Source of the DNA: a virus
Virus record (IMG/VR): IMGVR_UViG_3300042559_002797
Location: 1 to 24,392 of that record
Length of the DNA stretch: 24,392 bases
Strand: one strand, 5' to 3'
The first letter of the stretch is position 1. Every line of letters begins with the position of its first letter. The notes beneath the pieces are model-generated. The model was not told where the DNA came from. It searched no databases and worked only from the letters and a program-made list of their open reading frames with translations. Position numbers and translations under genes: made by a program. Below, one piece after another: positions 1,584 to 16,616 of this stretch.

Positions 1584-1615
1584 AAAAAACCAACTCTTTT
1601 GAGTTGGTTTTTTTT
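1584..1615. terminator. Bidirectional hairpin terminator
   Basis: CCAACTC (1590-1596), loop TTTT, GAGTTGG (1601-1607), followed by eight T on the plus strand and preceded by six A that read as T on the minus strand. It can end the plus-strand operon 505-1581 and also the tmRNA transcript, whose CCA end lies three bases beyond the T tract. Confidence 0.85.
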
Positions 1616-1617
1616 GT

Positions 1618-1988
1618 TGGTGGAGGTGTCCGGTAACGATCCGGAGTCCTCAAAACTAAACTTAATTAATCGTTTACAAGCTTAGTTAAATTTTTCTAAA
1701 TCTAACAAAATATTTGATTTTTTTTACTCATAAATAATCAACAAAAAACTATCATTATTTTAACCTGTCTGATTCAGGGGAGAATTTTTTTGAAGTATCA
1801 ATTAAGCTACTTCAAGCTCATTCACCACGAGCAAGTTGTTTTGTAGGGCAGCTACCAAATCAGCACTGGTTCCTACTTGTGTTTTTTCGCCGGTTACGAC
1901 ATCGTCACTTAATTTATTAATCGGGTATGTAACCAACCGATACTTGCTTAAGTAAATCTACGGTTTTAAGTCAAAGCCACTCACCCCC
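1618..1988 (-). ncRNA. ssrA: tmRNA (transfer-messenger RNA), phage-encoded, 371 nt
   Basis: On the minus strand the 5' end reads GGGGGTGAGTGGCTTTGAC, the classic tmRNA start. Its GGGGGTG (1982-1988) pairs over 7 bp, with one G·U, with CACCTCC (1622-1628), followed by a discriminator A and an encoded CCA (1618-1620). The T arm is TCCGG/CCGGA with a 7-nt loop ATCGTTA. Helix 2 is CTTAAAAC (1963-1970) with GTTTTGAG (1649-1656). Pseudoknot 1 can form from ATCGG/CCGAT and GGTTAC (1929-1934)/GTAACC (1892-1897). The tag frame stops at TAA in the loop of a GAAGTA/TACTTC hairpin (1792-1813), as in helix 5 of known tmRNAs. This is a one-piece, non-permuted tmRNA. It acts with SmpB on stalled ribosomes, adding a tag and releasing them. 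It lies downstream of the peptidase and NFACT-R genes on the same strand. Confidence 0.93.
1802..1891 (-). other. tmRNA tag reading frame (20-29 residues, resume codon uncertain)
   Basis: Reading back from TAA at 1802-1804 in the helix 5 loop, the frame is open through the tag region. If it resumes at GGC (1889-1891) the tag begins GEKTQVGTSA and has 29 residues. Gly-Glu is how I recall Bacteroidetes tags starting (GENNYALAA in Porphyromonas). That codon directly follows the proposed pseudoknot strand, however, and a gap of about ten bases is usual. Resumption at a later codon, such as the GCT at 1862-1864 (ADLVAALQNN…), is therefore possible. In every case the C terminus is …VVNELEVA, not the common (A)LAA degron. 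Confidence 0.6.
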
Positions 1989-2047
1989 ATATTTTTTACA
2001 AATATACATCTTATATATTAAATTCCAAAATTGTTTTTTATAATATT

Positions 2048-3883
2048 TTAAAAAGGAGCTTTTTCATCTTTCATTTCAATCTCACCATCTTCACCCGGAA
2101 TTTCAGCATCATAACTAAAAGTAAACTTTAACACTGGATATCCTTCTTTATTCTCATACAACTCTACTTCAGCACTATATGTAGTAAGGAGATCTTTTTT
2201 TATCTTATTGATTACTTCAAATACATTCAATAGATTACTCATTTTCTCTCTTTTAGATAAGAAAATGTAAGCTATTAAATCATAATTTTCAGTTTCAATT
2301 GTGGATTCGATTTTATTAGCTTTAAACATTTGTCTGATCCAATAAGCCAATTCACCCATTTCACCTTCTCCTCTACCATCTTCTTGTTCTTTTTCAAACT
2401 CTTCTTCTTGATAACCTTTTTTAGTTGGCTTATACTGATATTCATTCCAATCATCTAAATCATCCCAAGCTTCATTAAACTGGTTGAAACTATCTAAATA
2501 CTTTCTATAATATCCATAACCTTTACTCTTTTCTAATTCCATCTTTATAAACTCATCATCAAATGATACTGGTGGGTCTATATCATGTTTATTGAAAAGG
2601 TATGAAAGGTTTAAAAGGTCATTAGAAACTAAATCAACATCCGACTCATCCATTTCAACTTTAATAAAGGCTTTACCTCTATCACCAATTATTTTACATT
2701 CCATATTAAAAGGAGTAGCTTTAAAATCACTTATGAACTTTCCATATTTAGCTAGAATGTCATCATCTAAACCGATTTTTTTAGCTGTCGGCAATTCTTC
2801 CCATTTAATACTAACAGAAGCTTTAGCTAGTTTCTCAAGAAATGTGATATTTTGACTTTCTTTTGTTGTGTGTTCATCAAAATAACCAACTGATATATTC
2901 GTACATTCCGGTATCTGATCAATAAAAGAAGCTGAGTCAGTATAAATACCTGTCGGATCTAAACTAAATTTCATTCCTTGAGAATTATATTGGTCAGCTA
3001 ATGCTTGAGCAAATTCATCAGAGCAACATTCCATACCTAGTTGTTCAGTAATAACTGAATAATAATTTCTTCTATCAAAAGAAACGCATCGTTTAATACC
3101 CTTTAAATGCTCTACTTTTTCAAATATTGACGAAACCTTACCAGATCCAATACCACCTCTTTCTTCACCAATGAAGAAATAATAAACACCTGGAATATTA
3201 TGTGCTATCAAATATAACATCACAGCAACCCCAGATTTATCATCAGCTCCCAAAATAGTTGTACCATCACTCATAAGATGTTCTTGACCATTCTCTATCT
3301 CAGAGTAAATAGTCACCTTAGATTTCTTTCTATCTGCTGTATCTAAGTGTGAGGTAAACATAGTTTCTGATTTACCAATTATCTTATAATAATTACCAAA
3401 CTCATCTTTCTTTAGACCTGCTTGAGCAATGAAAGGAACTACTTCTTCTTCGTGTCCATGAGGATATGTCTCTGTAACAAGTGAAATGAATGTAGCTCTT
3501 ACATCTTTTGGATTCCAAGTAAACTTAGGAACTTCAACTTTTACTGATTTACTAACAGGAACATCTTTAGAGATAGTTGGAAGTGGTTTACCTTTCTTCA
3601 ATAAGTTATATTTTTGAGTGAAAGATTTAATCTCACCTTCAGTGAAGGTTGTACCAAGAAAGTATCTTATGAATTGTCCGACTTTCATTGGTCGATACTT
3701 TCCTCCTATTTTCACATCAAATGACCAATCTTGTGATGATTTATCAACCATCTCAATACCTATTTCATTATCTAAAATAGGATCTCCTTCTATTCTCATC
3801 AATTGGTCTGAAACTTTATCTCCGATATCATCAAATATATCGTAAAGTTTGTCGGAGTATGCTAATAATGGACCTTTTGGCAT
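2048..3883 (-). CDS. Zinc metallopeptidase (M20/M28/M42-like) with extra N- and C-terminal domains
   Basis: 611 residues. The core at about 125-360 has all expected metal and catalytic positions: SHLDT (H179, D181), LGADDKSG (D214/D215), GEERGGIGS (E240/E241), SFD (D270) and FDEHTT (H338). This arrangement fits peptidase T/M42-type aminopeptidases that trim peptides with two zinc ions. It is preceded by about 120 residues of a separate domain with KVGQFIRYFLG and FTEGEIKSF segments. It is followed by about 250 residues of unrecognised sequence with a very acidic stretch (474-510). Known bacterial relatives lack these extensions, so the protein may bind a partner or the virion. No signal peptide is seen, so it should act in the cytoplasm. 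The gene lies 26 bp downstream of the NFACT-R gene and 59 bp upstream of the tmRNA, all on one strand. A TTAATATATACT box precedes the start. Confidence 0.8.
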   Translation of the reverse strand: MPKGPLLAYSDKLYDIFDDIGDKVSDQLMRIEGDPILDNEIGIEMVDKSSQDWSFDVKIGGKYRPMKVGQFIRYFLGTTFTEGEIKSFTQKYNLLKKGKPLPTISKDVPVSKSVKVEVPKFTWNPKDVRATFISLVTETYPHGHEEEVVPFIAQAGLKKDEFGNYYKIIGKSETMFTSHLDTADRKKSKVTIYSEIENGQEHLMSDGTTILGADDKSGVAVMLYLIAHNIPGVYYFFIGEERGGIGSGKVSSIFEKVEHLKGIKRCVSFDRRNYYSVITEQLGMECCSDEFAQALADQYNSQGMKFSLDPTGIYTDSASFIDQIPECTNISVGYFDEHTTKESQNITFLEKLAKASVSIKWEELPTAKKIGLDDDILAKYGKFISDFKATPFNMECKIIGDRGKAFIKVEMDESDVDLVSNDLLNLSYLFNKHDIDPPVSFDDEFIKMELEKSKGYGYYRKYLDSFNQFNEAWDDLDDWNEYQYKPTKKGYQEEEFEKEQEDGRGEGEMGELAYWIRQMFKANKIESTIETENYDLIAYIFLSKREKMSNLLNVFEVINKIKKDLLTTYSAEVELYENKEGYPVLKFTFSYDAEIPGEDGEIEMKDEKAPF

Positions 3884-3901: not shown

Positions 3902-3913
3902 AGTATATATTAA
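3902..3913 (-). promoter_or_regulatory. Candidate late-promoter box for the peptidase and tmRNA
   Basis: Minus-strand TTAATATATACT lies 18 nt upstream of the peptidase ATG and overlaps the stop of the NFACT-R gene. The identical 12-mer lies 20 nt upstream of the gene that starts at 12747. Confidence 0.45.
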
Positions 3914-4299
3914 ATTGCAATATTGATTTCTTGAGCATTCTTATAATCAACTTTAACTTGACCTGGTTTCATATCTGGATCCTTCTTAACAAATTTAGCT
4001 TTACAACAAACAACTACACATTCTCCTTTAGCTTTTGAATTCTTTGCAGCCAATTGAGCCACTTGTCTTTTAACTTCATTAGAAATTAATCTATCTTTCT
4101 GTCTAATAATTATATGTGATCCTGGTACTCCTTTGACGTGAAACCATAGGTCTTCTGGATCGGCCATAATAGTTGTCAAATGGTCATTAGAAAGAGCATC
4201 TTTACCCATTATTATTTGATATCCATCTATTTCTAATCTTTTTAAGTTAGGAAATTTCTCTTTTTTAGATTCTTGAAATGATTTAAATTTTCTTATCAT
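3910..4299 (-). CDS. Stand-alone NFACT-R domain protein
   Basis: 129 residues. After a short N terminus (MIRKFKSFQESKKEKFP), the whole protein matches the NFACT-R (DUF814) domain found at the C-terminal side of RqcH/FbpA/NEMF proteins. Visible motifs are DGYQIIMGKDALSNDHLT (25-42), DLWFHVKGVPGSHIII (about 50-65), an AAKNSKAKG segment and VKKDPDMKPGQVKVDY (104-119). In cells these domains sit in RqcH, which binds stalled 60S/50S subunits and adds C-terminal alanine tails. NFACT-R itself is thought to bind RNA. The NFACT-N, helix-hairpin and coiled-coil parts needed for RqcH activity are absent here. The protein may therefore compete with or modify host ribosome quality control. The N terminus resembles the MKxLxxFE-type segment of other genes in this window. 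It starts an apparent operon with the peptidase and tmRNA. Confidence 0.85.
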   Translation of the reverse strand: MIRKFKSFQESKKEKFPNLKRLEIDGYQIIMGKDALSNDHLTTIMADPEDLWFHVKGVPGSHIIIRQKDRLISNEVKRQVAQLAAKNSKAKGECVVVCCKAKFVKKDPDMKPGQVKVDYKNAQEINIAI

Positions 4300-6909: not shown

Positions 6910-9012
6910 TTAAAGGTTTTTGAATCTTTCCATAATAGCTCCTAATTCTTTGTCAGATAATTTATCTTCCTGAATTAACGCTTCATGTGAAACTAATTTC
7001 TTAGTAACAGATTCATTCTTTTTAAGATTTCTAGTCATCCAGAAATGTTCTAACTGAGATTCAGTTTTCATAACATCAGATGGGTAAAGTCTAGCCTGTG
7101 AAAGGATAGATTTTCTAGCACTCTCATTAAGTTGGTTCCAGATTGGCTTGATGTTTTCAGGCATCAATCTGATTACTCTTTCTTCAAGAGTTTCGTTTTT
7201 AGCACTCAAGGCCTCAGAGATTAACTTCAATACATCAGATGTAGTGAAGAAACTTTTTTCGTTTATGTAAAGTTTAACAGTTTCTTGTTCTTCGTTTGTA
7301 AGATTGTAGAAACTATCAACCTGAGATTTGTTTAAAAACTTCAAAAAATGTAGATCGGATGTTTCAGTAGCTTTACGTTTTTTAGCTTCTTCGATCAATT
7401 TATCAATAGATTGTGATAATTCAGTATCAGACTCTCCAGAAACTTCATAAGATTCTTCTTCTTGAGTTTCTTCCTCATCTTCTTCGTGAGCCATTGGACC
7501 ACAAACTTCTTCTTCAGGAGTTTCTTCATGAGCTGGAGCTTCCATTTCATCATTCCAAGATTTTTCTTCTTCTTCCTCTTCTTCTACAGCTTCAAAACCT
7601 GCAGCTTTTAAAGTAGGGAAAGTTTCTGATTCACCATAAGACTCTAATAGTTTTCCACTATTCAATCTTTCAGCGATAAGTCCAGAGTATGAAATAGATT
7701 TGTCTAAGTTTTCTGCGATATATTCAGAGTAAGCGATGTTATCATCAAGATTCTCAGCGATATATTCAGAGTATGCAATATTACCTTCTACGTGTTCAGC
7801 AAGATACTCAGAGTAAGCAATAGAGTTATCTAAGTGTTCTGCTAAATATTCTCCGTAAGAGATAGATTTGTCTAAGTTTTCTGCGATATATTCAGCATAA
7901 GCAATGTTCTTGTCAAGATTCTCAGCTAAATATTCAGAGTAAGCAATATTCTTGTCAAGGTTTTCAGCTAAATACTCACCATAAGAGATTGATTTATCAA
8001 GGTTCTCAGCGATATATTCAGCATAAGAAATGTTCTTGTCAAGGTTTTCAGCGATATACTCAGAGTATTCGATGTTTTTATCAAGATTCTCAGCGATATA
8101 CTCAGAATAATTGATAGCCTTTTCAAGATTTTCAGCTAAATAATCATTGTGTTTGATAAGTTTCTCAGTAGTAGATTTAAGAGAAGTATTCTCATTAACT
8201 ACAACTTGTACTTTTTCTGCTAAGTAATCAAGATACTTAACAATTTGTGAGTTATTTTTATTTAAATCTTCATAATATTCAAGAAGTTGTTCTAACTTCT
8301 TAGGATTTAAGTTACCTTTAGAAAGAGCCGATGTTACAGTCTTCTTTGTAGAAGCCAACTCATTTACTAAGTATTTTGAGTAATCGGTCAATTGTTTTTT
8401 CGTTACGAAATCGTTAGCGTTCATGTTAAATAGTTCGTTAATTTTTGATTCATCAGACATCTCGTAAATTCTAAAGTTTGACTTCGGATTTTTATAACCT
8501 AAAGATTCGTTAAGAGTCTTTACAGTCATTTTGGCAGAAGAAAAACCAGGATCTGCTACGATATCATATGTGAATAATTTTTTCAATGTAACCGTTCCAT
8601 CAGCCTCTGTAACACCAGCTGCACGAGAAGAAACGAAAATAGGACAACCATCGTTGACCAAAGCTTTAGCTTCTTTTCCCCAGTATGTGTTGAGAAGTCT
8701 AATTTCACCTTCTATTCTGTTACTTTCTTTAACAAAAGAAGCACTTCTCACAATGTGAGATGCTCTTGAAAGAGAAGTGTCGAAAACATCGGGATGGTCG
8801 AATTCACCATAAACAACACCAAGATTTGTAATCCTTTCGTTTAATTCATTTAAACAAGGAATAAATCTATCGGCTGTGTAAACTCTTTCGTTCCTATTTT
8901 TAATATCGAACTCAGTGAAAATACCACCCAATATGAATTGATCCTTCTGACTGTTATTCTCATTAAGTGATAATGAGTTAGTTGAGTTTTCTACAATTAG
9001 TACTGATTTCAT
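6910..9012 (-). CDS. 21: Prohead protease fused to scaffold core (gp21 + gp22-like)
   Basis: 700 residues. Residues 25-170 form a T4 gp21-type serine protease. GEFDHPD (His73) and FVSSRAAG (Ser128/129) match the catalytic His and Ser segments, with LFTYDIVADPGF near the end of the domain. From about 190 the protein is helical and scaffold-like. Residues 289-452 are twelve tandem 14-mers of the type SEYIAENLDKNIAY. After this come a Glu-rich stretch (476-521) and a helical C terminus ending MERFKNL. In T4 the protease and the scaffold are separate genes (21, 22); here one ORF holds both. Each repeat carries [IL]-A-E, which fits the gp21 cleavage rule. The gene lies between portal and capsid genes, as in T4, with a CTATATACT box upstream. 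Confidence 0.9.
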   Translation of the reverse strand: MKSVLIVENSTNSLSLNENNSQKDQFILGGIFTEFDIKNRNERVYTADRFIPCLNELNERITNLGVVYGEFDHPDVFDTSLSRASHIVRSASFVKESNRIEGEIRLLNTYWGKEAKALVNDGCPIFVSSRAAGVTEADGTVTLKKLFTYDIVADPGFSSAKMTVKTLNESLGYKNPKSNFRIYEMSDESKINELFNMNANDFVTKKQLTDYSKYLVNELASTKKTVTSALSKGNLNPKKLEQLLEYYEDLNKNNSQIVKYLDYLAEKVQVVVNENTSLKSTTEKLIKHNDYLAENLEKAINYSEYIAENLDKNIEYSEYIAENLDKNISYAEYIAENLDKSISYGEYLAENLDKNIAYSEYLAENLDKNIAYAEYIAENLDKSISYGEYLAEHLDNSIAYSEYLAEHVEGNIAYSEYIAENLDDNIAYSEYIAENLDKSISYSGLIAERLNSGKLLESYGESETFPTLKAAGFEAVEEEEEEEKSWNDEMEAPAHEETPEEEVCGPMAHEEDEEETQEEESYEVSGESDTELSQSIDKLIEEAKKRKATETSDLHFLKFLNKSQVDSFYNLTNEEQETVKLYINEKSFFTTSDVLKLISEALSAKNETLEERVIRLMPENIKPIWNQLNESARKSILSQARLYPSDVMKTESQLEHFWMTRNLKKNESVTKKLVSHEALIQEDKLSDKELGAIMERFKNL
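7657..8148 (-). repeat. Tandem 42-bp (14-residue) repeat array inside the scaffold gene
   Basis: About 11.7 copies coding for (S/A/G)-E-Y-(I/L)-A-E-N-L-D-K-(N/S)-I-x-Y. The copies differ at synonymous and a few coding positions, so the array is old or under selection on the protein. A degenerate in-phase unit (LDYLAEK, residues 261-267) lies two repeat lengths upstream. Tyr and aliphatic residues recur in a helical pattern. Confidence 0.95.
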
Positions 9013-14338: not shown

Positions 14339-14634
14339 ACTTTAAAAAATATATCTTCTATTTTTATTAGATTGTTCATTTCATACTCCATCAATCGAAG
14401 TGAATTTTTTTCCTTCACTAATTCAAACAGAGTATCAGAAATAAAACATTCTATCAATGGACCAGTGATTCTGTCATATTCATGTGACACTAAAGCCTCA
14501 CCCTGACGAATTATATATATTTCATTTAGATAACTCTTATGAGCCTCTTCATTGATATGTAAAGAGCAACCATCAGGTCTAATACCCCAACTTCTTTCAG
14601 ATTCTTCCCATCTCTGGAAATAACAACGATTCAT
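14335..14634 (-). CDS. Conserved phage hypothetical protein with WGxRPDGxSLH motif
   Basis: 99 residues. The segment [26 protein letters not shown] (residues 15-40, shown for its motif WGxRPDGxSLHxxxxxxxxYxxxIY) resembles small uncharacterised proteins common in phages. No function is known to me. It begins 38 bp inside the end of the GDP-fucose synthase gene and is coupled by a four-base overlap to the membrane protein downstream, so it belongs to the fucose operon. Confidence 0.7.
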
Positions 14635-15550
14635 TTAAAAAATGTTTATAAGTTAATTCAATTCCCCTTTTCAAGTCAGTCTTATGTGACCAACCTAACT
14701 CATGTATTTTAGAAACATCTAAAAGTTTACGAGGAGTACCATCTGGTTTAGAAGAATCATAAATAATTTGACCAGCGAACCCAATGACGTCTCTGATCAT
14801 TAATGCTAAATCTTTAATTGAAATATCTTCACCAGTTCCAATATTAACAATTTCAGACTCATTGTAATTTAACATTAAATAAACACAAGCCTCAGCTAAA
14901 TCCTCGACATATAAAAATTCACGCATAGGATTTCCACTGCCCCATATAACAACCTCGGAATCTCCATTACTTTTTGCTTCATGAAATTTTCTAATAAGAG
15001 CTGGTAAAACGTGTGATGATTGTAAATCATAATTATCACCAGGACCATACAAATTAGTTGGCATAACTGAAATAAAATTTGTACCATACTGTTGATTGAA
15101 ACTTTGACACATTTTTATTCCAGCAATTTTTGCAATTGCATAAGCATCATTACTTGTCTCTAAATAACCACTCAATAAATATTCCTCCTTTAAAGGCTGT
15201 GGTGCCATTTTAGGGTAAATACATGAGGAACCCAAAAACATTAATTTTTTTACTCCTGTCTGATATGATGCGTTAATAATATTCGTTTGAATCGCGAGAT
15301 TTTGATAAATAAAATCTGCCTTAAAATCACTGTTAGCCTTGATACCACCAACCTTCGCTGCTGCAAGAAAAACATATTCTGGTCTCTCAAAGTGAAAAAA
15401 ATGATTGACTTGAAATTGATTAGTTAGATCTAATTCTTTTTTTGATTTAGTCACAATATTGGTATATCCTTCAGATTTTAATTTTCTTAGTATAGCTGAT
15501 CCAACCATACCTCTATGACCAGCAACAAATATTTTAGAATCTTTTTTCAT
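14597..15550 (-). CDS. fcl: GDP-L-fucose synthase (3,5-epimerase/4-reductase)
   Basis: 317 residues from the ATG at 15550. The frame is open further up to 15670, but that part only shadows the gmd gene, and the nucleotide-binding strand starts at [15 protein letters not shown] right after this Met. The protein is an SDR enzyme: the glycine motif [25 protein letters not shown] (catalytic Ser region), YAIAK (Tyr and Lys of YxxxK) and [12 protein letters not shown] are all present. It converts GDP-4-keto-6-deoxymannose to GDP-L-fucose with NADPH, the step after Gmd. Its length is close to the bacterial enzyme. It overlaps the end of gmd by 17 bp. Confidence 0.93.
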
Positions 15551-16616
15551 TTTCAAGATGTTTTTTTGATATTTTTTCAAAATCCGAATAAACCATTTCC
15601 TTACACAATTCTTCGACTGTATATTTAGGTATCCATCCCAATTTTGTTCTAGCTTTAGTTGAATCACCAAGTAGTTGATCTACTTCTGTTGGCCTAAAGT
15701 ATTCAGTGTCTATCTCAACTATTACTTTTCCAGTTTTTTTATCTATACCCCTTTCATCTTTTCCTGAACCAATCCAATCGATTTGAATATCAAGAAAGTT
15801 AAAAGCCATGGTGCAAAATTCTCTAACTGAAATTTTTGTACCAGTTGAGAGAACATAGTCTTCTGGTGTATCTTGTTGCATCATTAACCACATACCCTCA
15901 ACATAATCTTTAGCATGTCCCCAATCTCTTTCAGCATCAAGATTACCAATTAATAATTTATCTTGAATTCCTAATTTAATTTTAGCAACAGCTTGTGTAA
16001 TCTTTCTTGTTACGAATGTTTCACCCCTAACTGGACTTTCATGATTGAAAAGTATTCCAGAACAAGCAAATATTCCATAAGCCTCTCTATAATTAACAGT
16101 AATCCAATGTGCATAAAGTTTAGCTACACCATATGGACTTCTTGGATAAAAAGGAGTTGTTTCTTTTTGAGGCACTTCTTGAACTAAGCCAAACATTTCA
16201 GAAGTTGATGCTTGATAAAATTTTGTTTTATTTTGAAGATTCAAGATTCTAATAGCTTCTAAAATTCTAAGAGTTCCTATACCATCAGCATTTGCAGTAT
16301 ATTCCGGAGTTTCAAAACTCACTTTAACATGAGATTGTGCGGCTAAATTATAGATTTCATCTGGTTGAACTTCTTGTATTATTCTAATTAAATTGGTCGA
16401 GTCAGTCAAATCACCATAATGTAAATGAAAGTTTTTGGATTCTCTTGTAGATTCATAAAGATAATCTATTCTTTCAGTATTGAAAGAAGAACTTCTTCTC
16501 TTTATACCATGAACTATATAACCTTTTTCTAGAAGAAATTCAGCTAAGTAACTTCCATCTTGCCCCGTGATTCCCGTACAAAGTGCTACTTTTTTTTTAT
16601 CTAAATTTGTACTCAT
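15534..16616 (-). CDS. gmd: GDP-mannose 4,6-dehydratase
   Basis: 360 residues. The N terminus has the NAD(P)-binding [16 protein letters not shown] motif (15-30) and [14 protein letters not shown]. The catalytic STSEMFG and YGVAK (YxxxK) motifs, [33 protein letters not shown] and [13 protein letters not shown] all match bacterial Gmd. It makes GDP-4-keto-6-deoxymannose from GDP-mannose in the cytoplasm. With the next gene it gives a full route to GDP-L-fucose. A AATTATATAA box (16641-16650) lies about 25 bases upstream. Confidence 0.95.

Follow-up and report, generated by a model that had tools for sequence, protein, structure and literature searches.

What becomes of an unfinished protein when a bacteriophage provides its own transfer-messenger RNA (tmRNA), and with it a tag that does not end in LAA? 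The question is raised by a 24,392-nucleotide viral sequence (IMG/VR record IMGVR_UViG_3300042559_002797; referred to here as the window), in which a complete tmRNA, encoded by the phage and bearing an unusual tag, had been proposed from the letters alone (the original prediction). ARAGORN and Rfam agreed in placing a one-piece tmRNA, the only one reported in the window, on the minus strand at exactly 1618-1988, and the match to RF00023 scored 57.4 bits (E 2.7e-20; family cut-off, 47 bits) across the full model (1-374). The features of the gene are as follows.

1618-1988, minus strand: ssrA, the tmRNA gene; one-piece, 371 nt, CCA encoded (ARAGORN, RF00023, acceptor 7/7 with G3.U70)
1622-1645, minus strand: T arm (1645-1629) and 3' acceptor strand (1628-1622), by sequence inspection
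1792-1813, minus strand: hairpin of the P5 type with the tag stop codon UAA (1804-1802) in its loop (Rfam alignment, sequence)
1805-1891, minus strand: tag frame of 29 codons, GEKTQVGTSADLVAALQNNLLVVNELEVA, closed by that stop codon (resume context, 44 homologous tags)
1843-1876, minus strand: internal hairpin within the tag frame, GUAGG/CCUAC, with GUAGN/NCUAC at the same place in relatives (pair counts)

Of the hallmarks on which the proposal had rested, a 7-bp acceptor, an encoded CCA, a T arm and a stop codon in a hairpin loop are present. The acceptor GGGGGUG/CACCUCC forms seven of seven pairs and includes the alanine identity pair G3.U70; the T arm (UCCGG-AUCGUUA-CCGGA) has a 5-bp stem and a loop, AUCGUUA, that departs from the canonical UUCRANN. 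The hairpin around the stop codon consists of 6 bp, GAAGUA (1813-1808) with UACUUC (1797-1792). At the candidates for the pseudoknots PK1-PK4 the Rfam posteriors were about 0.1-0.4, and the segment 3' of the stop codon measures 181 nt in the window compared with 268-275 nt in hosts. Loss of acceptor and helix pairing in relatives had been named as the observation that would count against a tmRNA; instead, an acceptor paired at all seven positions with G3.U70 was found in nearly all relatives with locatable ends, its changes being compensatory (GGGUCCG/CGGAUCC, GUGGGUG/CACCUAC and others), and the T stems of the related phage tmRNAs covary as well. These compensatory changes, together with reading frames that are intact across the family, disfavour either recent acquisition from a host or decay. 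The window thus most likely carries a functional phage ssrA gene, for which charging, SmpB binding and tagging in vivo are predicted.

In a large subclade of the related tmRNAs (L002, L003, L031, L050, L071, L101, L135 and others), the T stem is of 6 bp and the loop resembles GGCAGUA, not UUCRANN. The tmRNAs of the phages LR745206 and LR756502 belong to this subclade; ARAGORN overlooks most of its members and a whole-record RF00023 search overlooked the genes of these two phages, so that huge-phage tmRNAs are under-annotated. The expectation that few phages carry ssrA holds in that they are a minority; with 402 of 18,146 phage genomes, or about 2.3% (PMC9004378), the gene is not extremely rare.

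The window covers a fragment of the genome of a huge T4-like phage that belongs to the Mahaphage clade. Its T4-type genes encode a portal, a prohead protease/core protein, a major capsid protein, a gp55-like late sigma factor and a clamp loader. With the capsid proteins of LR756502 (642 kb) and LR745206 (635 kb) that of the window shares 68% and 66% identity, respectively; next in order come those of LR756504, LR756501/3 (735 kb), LR756500 and the Lak phages. Al-Shayeb et al. (2020; PMC7162821) assign Lak and the largest of their genomes to the Mahaphage clade and predict Bacteroidetes hosts for the five genomes over 634 kb. The tags of 24 Flavobacteriales/Bacteroidia genomes examined are GENNYALAA or variants with up to three residues different; among these 24, ARAGORN reported a spurious tag for one genome (true frame GENNYALAA) and none for two. 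Elsewhere in the window, a 13-residue repeat of the type YSEYIAENLDKNI recurs in tandem about a dozen times in the prohead protease/core protein (6910-9012), and the structural region also includes a TnsA-like N-terminal endonuclease domain (PF08722; 13492-14028) and a putative pair of GDP-mannose dehydratase-like and GDP-fucose synthase-like genes (14597-16616).

The extent of the tag follows from the context of its resume codon. In the window, GUAACC immediately precedes GGC (1891-1889); in flavobacterial tmRNAs TAAAC and GGC precede and open GENNYALAA, and in the relatives GUAAA(C/U) is followed by GG(C/A). Because the context GUAA(A/C)C before GGC also precedes the host GENNYALAA, the tag was taken as 29 residues beginning at GGC 1891-1889. 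Of the 20-29 residues originally allowed, the upper figure is therefore kept and the shorter starts are dropped; the 15-residue tag given by ARAGORN was likewise rejected, as its start lies inside the frame. The window tag terminates in EVA, and hence lacks the C-terminal LAA of a ClpXP-type ssrA degron. That the tag would be atypical in this respect was well anticipated: none of 44 tags in its family ends in LAA, and the host tags compared are of the GENNYALAA type.

This family was obtained by a scan of viral contigs seeded with seven tags, which yielded 61 loci and 44 distinct tag genes with the consensus GNTNEVGTxEDLVxALQNNxLxVxELxVA. The tags are 29 residues long in 30 cases, 30 in 11, 28 in one and 27 in two; 25 of them terminate in Ala and 19 in Val. 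Hardly any variation is seen in the core (E)DLVxALxNN. The two other reading frames are closed in 44/44 and 41/44 tags, respectively. Within the tag frame pN/pS is 0.62; the other frames give 1.00-1.08 and column-permuted controls 0.96 (3 of 200 as low). Some codons (GTA, CTA, AAC) do not vary even in their nucleotides, which is due in part to the pairing of GUAGN with NCUAC within the frame; this internal hairpin retains four to five of its five pairs in every relative counted, the inner pair being G-C, G-U, C-G or U-A. The pairing and the in-frame conservation together indicate that both the RNA structure and the peptide are constrained. Judged from these sequence comparisons, the tag is neither a lone oddity nor a recent extension.

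Several ideas on the source or nature of the tag were set aside. A DLVAA stretch within it had been read as an older degron buried by an extension, a reading that the comparison did not support: all 44 tags are full-length, with the EDLV core at one fixed position, and not one ends directly behind it. The EDLVLA end of the tag of the 735-kb phage was considered as support for such a buried degron, and the resemblance was not significant against shuffles (2-68%). A bacterial origin was rejected since a scan of a bacterial genome collection found no EDLV tag, and the idea that the tag imitates some other phage protein or known structure was dropped since tblastn with the consensus tag retrieved two tmRNAs only and the PDB gave no match. 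An amphipathic helix formed by the core was also discarded, its moments (0.50-0.52) being not above those of shuffles (10-23%).

Mahaphages that lie deeper in the clade carry different tags. Those of Lak-B1 (DDEIEFRMAA) and LR756500 (GNNAEMRMAA) have 10 residues each and terminate in RMAA. The tag of LR756504, DNVNSFEQSILNELFAPVEMAVAA, is identical in its IMG/VR relative L309, and that of LR756501 (735 kb), GDYKMNAEDMMSIPTSLTGKVATESFVEDLVLA, has the counterpart GNYKMNAEDIMSIPTSLTGKVYTESLVEDLILA in L310; a DNA-pattern search gave one relative for each of the two. As the window-type, LR756504 and LR756501 tags are all long, long tags occur in three Mahaphage lineages, and the similarity between them is not significant. 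A tRNA-Met directly precedes the LR756504 tmRNA, the tag of which ends in MAVAA (L150/L309). The lineages also differ in the RNA: the segment 3' of the stop codon is 185 nt (165-195) in EDLV-tag relatives and full-length (269-276 nt) in the Lak and LR756500 tmRNAs. The 5' segment is unchanged (97 nt in EDLV-tag tmRNAs vs 96 nt). With the 3' segment some 84 nt shorter and the tag longer, extension of the tag was accompanied by loss of part of the 3' domain.

The proteins that could act with such a tmRNA are known from the relatives; the SmpB, ClpC and ClpP findings all come from these records and none from the 24-kb window. SmpB was found in 10 of 19 phage records, including every near-complete one except LR756500; its carriers are LR745206, LR756502, LR756504, LR756501, Lak-B1 and several large contigs. 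The phage SmpB has a GKK.DKR tail region, and the one tested exceeded the NCBIfam equivalog cut-off. ClpP is present in 10 of 13 records, in up to three copies. A ClpC-type AAA+ protein was found in all six large EDLV-tag records (LR745206, LR756502, G004, G006, G008 and G009), an association of tag and ClpC that is a correlation over few genomes of shared ancestry. The intact ClpCs combine a UVR middle motif with a G(V/L)GF ClpP loop and lack the Clp_N domain; that of LR756502 is about 70% identical to Flavobacteriales ClpC, has an N-terminus about 135 residues shorter and shares the GVGF ClpP loop. Four of the six records also encode ClpP: in LR745206, LR756502 and G008 it is accompanied by a ClpC with the ClpP-docking loop, and in G004 by a split ClpC. 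The G004 gene is apparently interrupted by an intein-like or homing-element insert (L196, G004 119900-126500).

No ClpX was found among the AAA_2 matches of the six records. Lon and FtsH were not found in the phage records tested, and a phage Lon or FtsH was accordingly rejected as the reader of the tag. Outside the EDLV-tag group, Lak, with its short RMAA tag, has a true ClpX with zinc finger together with ClpP, LR756504 encodes a ClpX-like protein beside a ClpC-like one, and LR756501, with a long tag, has no ClpP and an N-domain ClpB/C-like protein without the ClpP loop. In G009 and LR756504 the gene for SmpB lies about 2-4 kb from that for ClpC; in LR756502 and G008 its distance to a ClpP gene is about 2-3 kb. 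Gene presence and position suggest that trans-translation is tied to a phage Clp machine, and the proximity could be due to chance in large genomes. The original suggestion that tagged proteins might reach a protease other than host ClpXP has thereby gained a plausible route, since near-complete relatives possess ClpC without its N-domain, usually ClpP and no ClpX.

The genes and signals adjoining the tmRNA in the window are the following.

2048-3883, minus strand: M20/M42-type metallopeptidase of 611 aa, upstream neighbour of the tmRNA (PHROG 4191, Foldseek, synteny)
3910-4299, minus strand: stand-alone NFACT-R protein (Pfam PF05670, 61.7 bits; synteny)
2012-2020, minus strand: late-promoter-like TAATATATA, 32 nt upstream of the tmRNA 5' end (motif copies)
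1999-2006, minus strand: TATATTTG, a match to TAnnTTTG, with TTTG 19 nt further up (sequence)
1584-1607, minus strand: intrinsic-terminator-like hairpin CCAACUC...GAGUUGG and then a U run, shortly after CCA (sequence)

The AlphaFold model of the metallopeptidase (pLDDT 80.8) matched PepT tripeptidase and TET aminopeptidases in Foldseek (best E 5.5e-10); the protein also has a C-terminal extension. NFACT-R is the domain with which proteins of the RqcH/Rqc2 family bind RNA. In the records tested the stand-alone protein is confined to the EDLV-tag phage clade, where it is a possible second component of ribosome quality control. The order capsid, NFACT-R, M20/M42 peptidase and tmRNA, on one strand, is retained in most EDLV-tag loci, which makes a functional link of the two proteins to the tmRNA plausible. 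Eleven copies of TAATATATA occur in the window, ten of them 8-36 nt upstream of a gene start (sites include 2020, 3912, 4312, 5037, 12778 and 18567 on the minus strand and 492 and 20361 on the plus strand); the motif probably serves this phage lineage as a late promoter, as TATAAATA does in T4. TAnnTTTG, which we take to be the -7 element of the Bacteroidota vegetative promoter, stands upstream of 21 of 40 related tmRNAs.

Taken together, the most likely reading, at about even odds, is that these phages conduct a self-contained trans-translation that feeds a phage ClpCP-type protease, the latter a step that we infer. During infection, host alanyl-tRNA synthetase would charge the phage tmRNA, and the phage SmpB known from near-complete relatives would load it onto stalled ribosomes. 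Translation would resume at GGC, and the unfinished protein would be released with the 29-residue tag. As this tag is without the (Y)ALAA terminus of host tags, host ClpXP would be expected to handle it poorly or differently. The conserved core EDLVxALQNN and the hydrophobic Val/Ala end would instead be read by the phage ClpC-type unfoldase with ClpP, the interior core and not the C-terminus being the expected site of recognition, and the adjoining M20/M42-type exopeptidase could complete the digestion of the peptides. Late in infection the phage would probably benefit by keeping ribosomes free and by having the recycling of broken chains under its own control.

Three other readings were weighed against this one. 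Trans-translation could be of the ordinary kind, with ribosomes rescued, the Val-Ala-ending tag still degraded by host ClpXP and its length without special role. It is in keeping with this that each of the 44 tags ends in a small hydrophobic residue and that, in E. coli, LVA is degraded about as well as LAA, and AAV and ASV less well (PMC9097571). However, the tag is better conserved in its interior than at its C-terminus, the opposite of what a C-terminal ClpX degron predicts, and no phage tag of the clade has retained the YALAA of nearly all hosts examined; we regard this account as unlikely. A tag ignored by all proteases, which would free the ribosomes and spare truncated phage proteins, accords with the loss of the LAA end, and conservation of a long peptide could reflect needs of solubility or of the ribosome exit. 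Yet such a tag would require no conserved core, and the related phages possess ClpC, usually ClpP, and the exopeptidase, which renders rescue without degradation quite improbable.

The long frame could, alternatively, serve mainly RNA architecture, its hairpin replacing the lost part of the 3' pseudoknot domain and the peptide being secondary. The 3' part did contract, from some 269 nt to 185 nt, as the tag gained about 20 codons, and the GUAGN/NCUAC hairpin was retained inside the tag. However, the conserved residues EDLV and NN are encoded beyond the paired bases, the tag frame shows the lowest pN/pS and length changes preserve that frame, so that this is the least probable of the three.

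Comparison with known systems places the phage tmRNA close to the one-piece tmRNA/SmpB system of Bacteroidota (RF00023), with which it shares the tRNA-like domain, G3.U70, the TAAAC context before GGC, the stop codon in a hairpin loop and, in phage relatives, SmpB. It differs in its 29-residue tag without LAA, a 3' domain about 84 nt shorter, a non-canonical T loop and its location on a phage. The Lak and LR756500 tmRNAs are the same gene in the same capsid-protein lineage, but have short tags ending in MAA and a full-length 3' domain, and Lak has ClpX instead of ClpC. That huge phages of the Mahaphage clade carry tmRNA and SmpB, the same kinds of gene, was known (Al-Shayeb et al., 2020; PMC7162821); the available text of that study gives their presence only and does not mention tag sequences, a tag family or a link to ClpC. 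Mollicutes are known to have long tags that a different protease reads (PMC8138137, PMC9382460), as with AANKNEENTNEVPTFMLNAGQANYAFA of Mesoplasma florum, which is read by Lon and is likewise long, with an altered end and its specificity shifted to another protease; the phages tested have no Lon. Resemblance of the M. florum tag to the phage tags (a shared NTNEV) was rejected as not significant (the best pair gave p 0.04, the other EDLV tags 0.07-0.99). In the literature searched, mostly outside subscription journals, no description was found of the tag family, the pairing with ClpC or the non-canonical T arms, nor of a phage-encoded degron-protease pair of such a kind.

A conserved tag confined to phages coincides with the absence of ClpX and the presence of a trimmed ClpC, which makes the rewiring of trans-translation by a phage directly testable with one reporter and three proteins; the tag could also serve synthetic biology as an orthogonal degron. 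We think it possible, though rather doubtful, that the phages maintain an orthogonal line of quality control, in which the T arms would have drifted from the host type to suit their own SmpB and the 29-residue degron would be read only by the phage N-domainless ClpC with ClpP. If so, both the rescue of chains and their disposal would escape host control.
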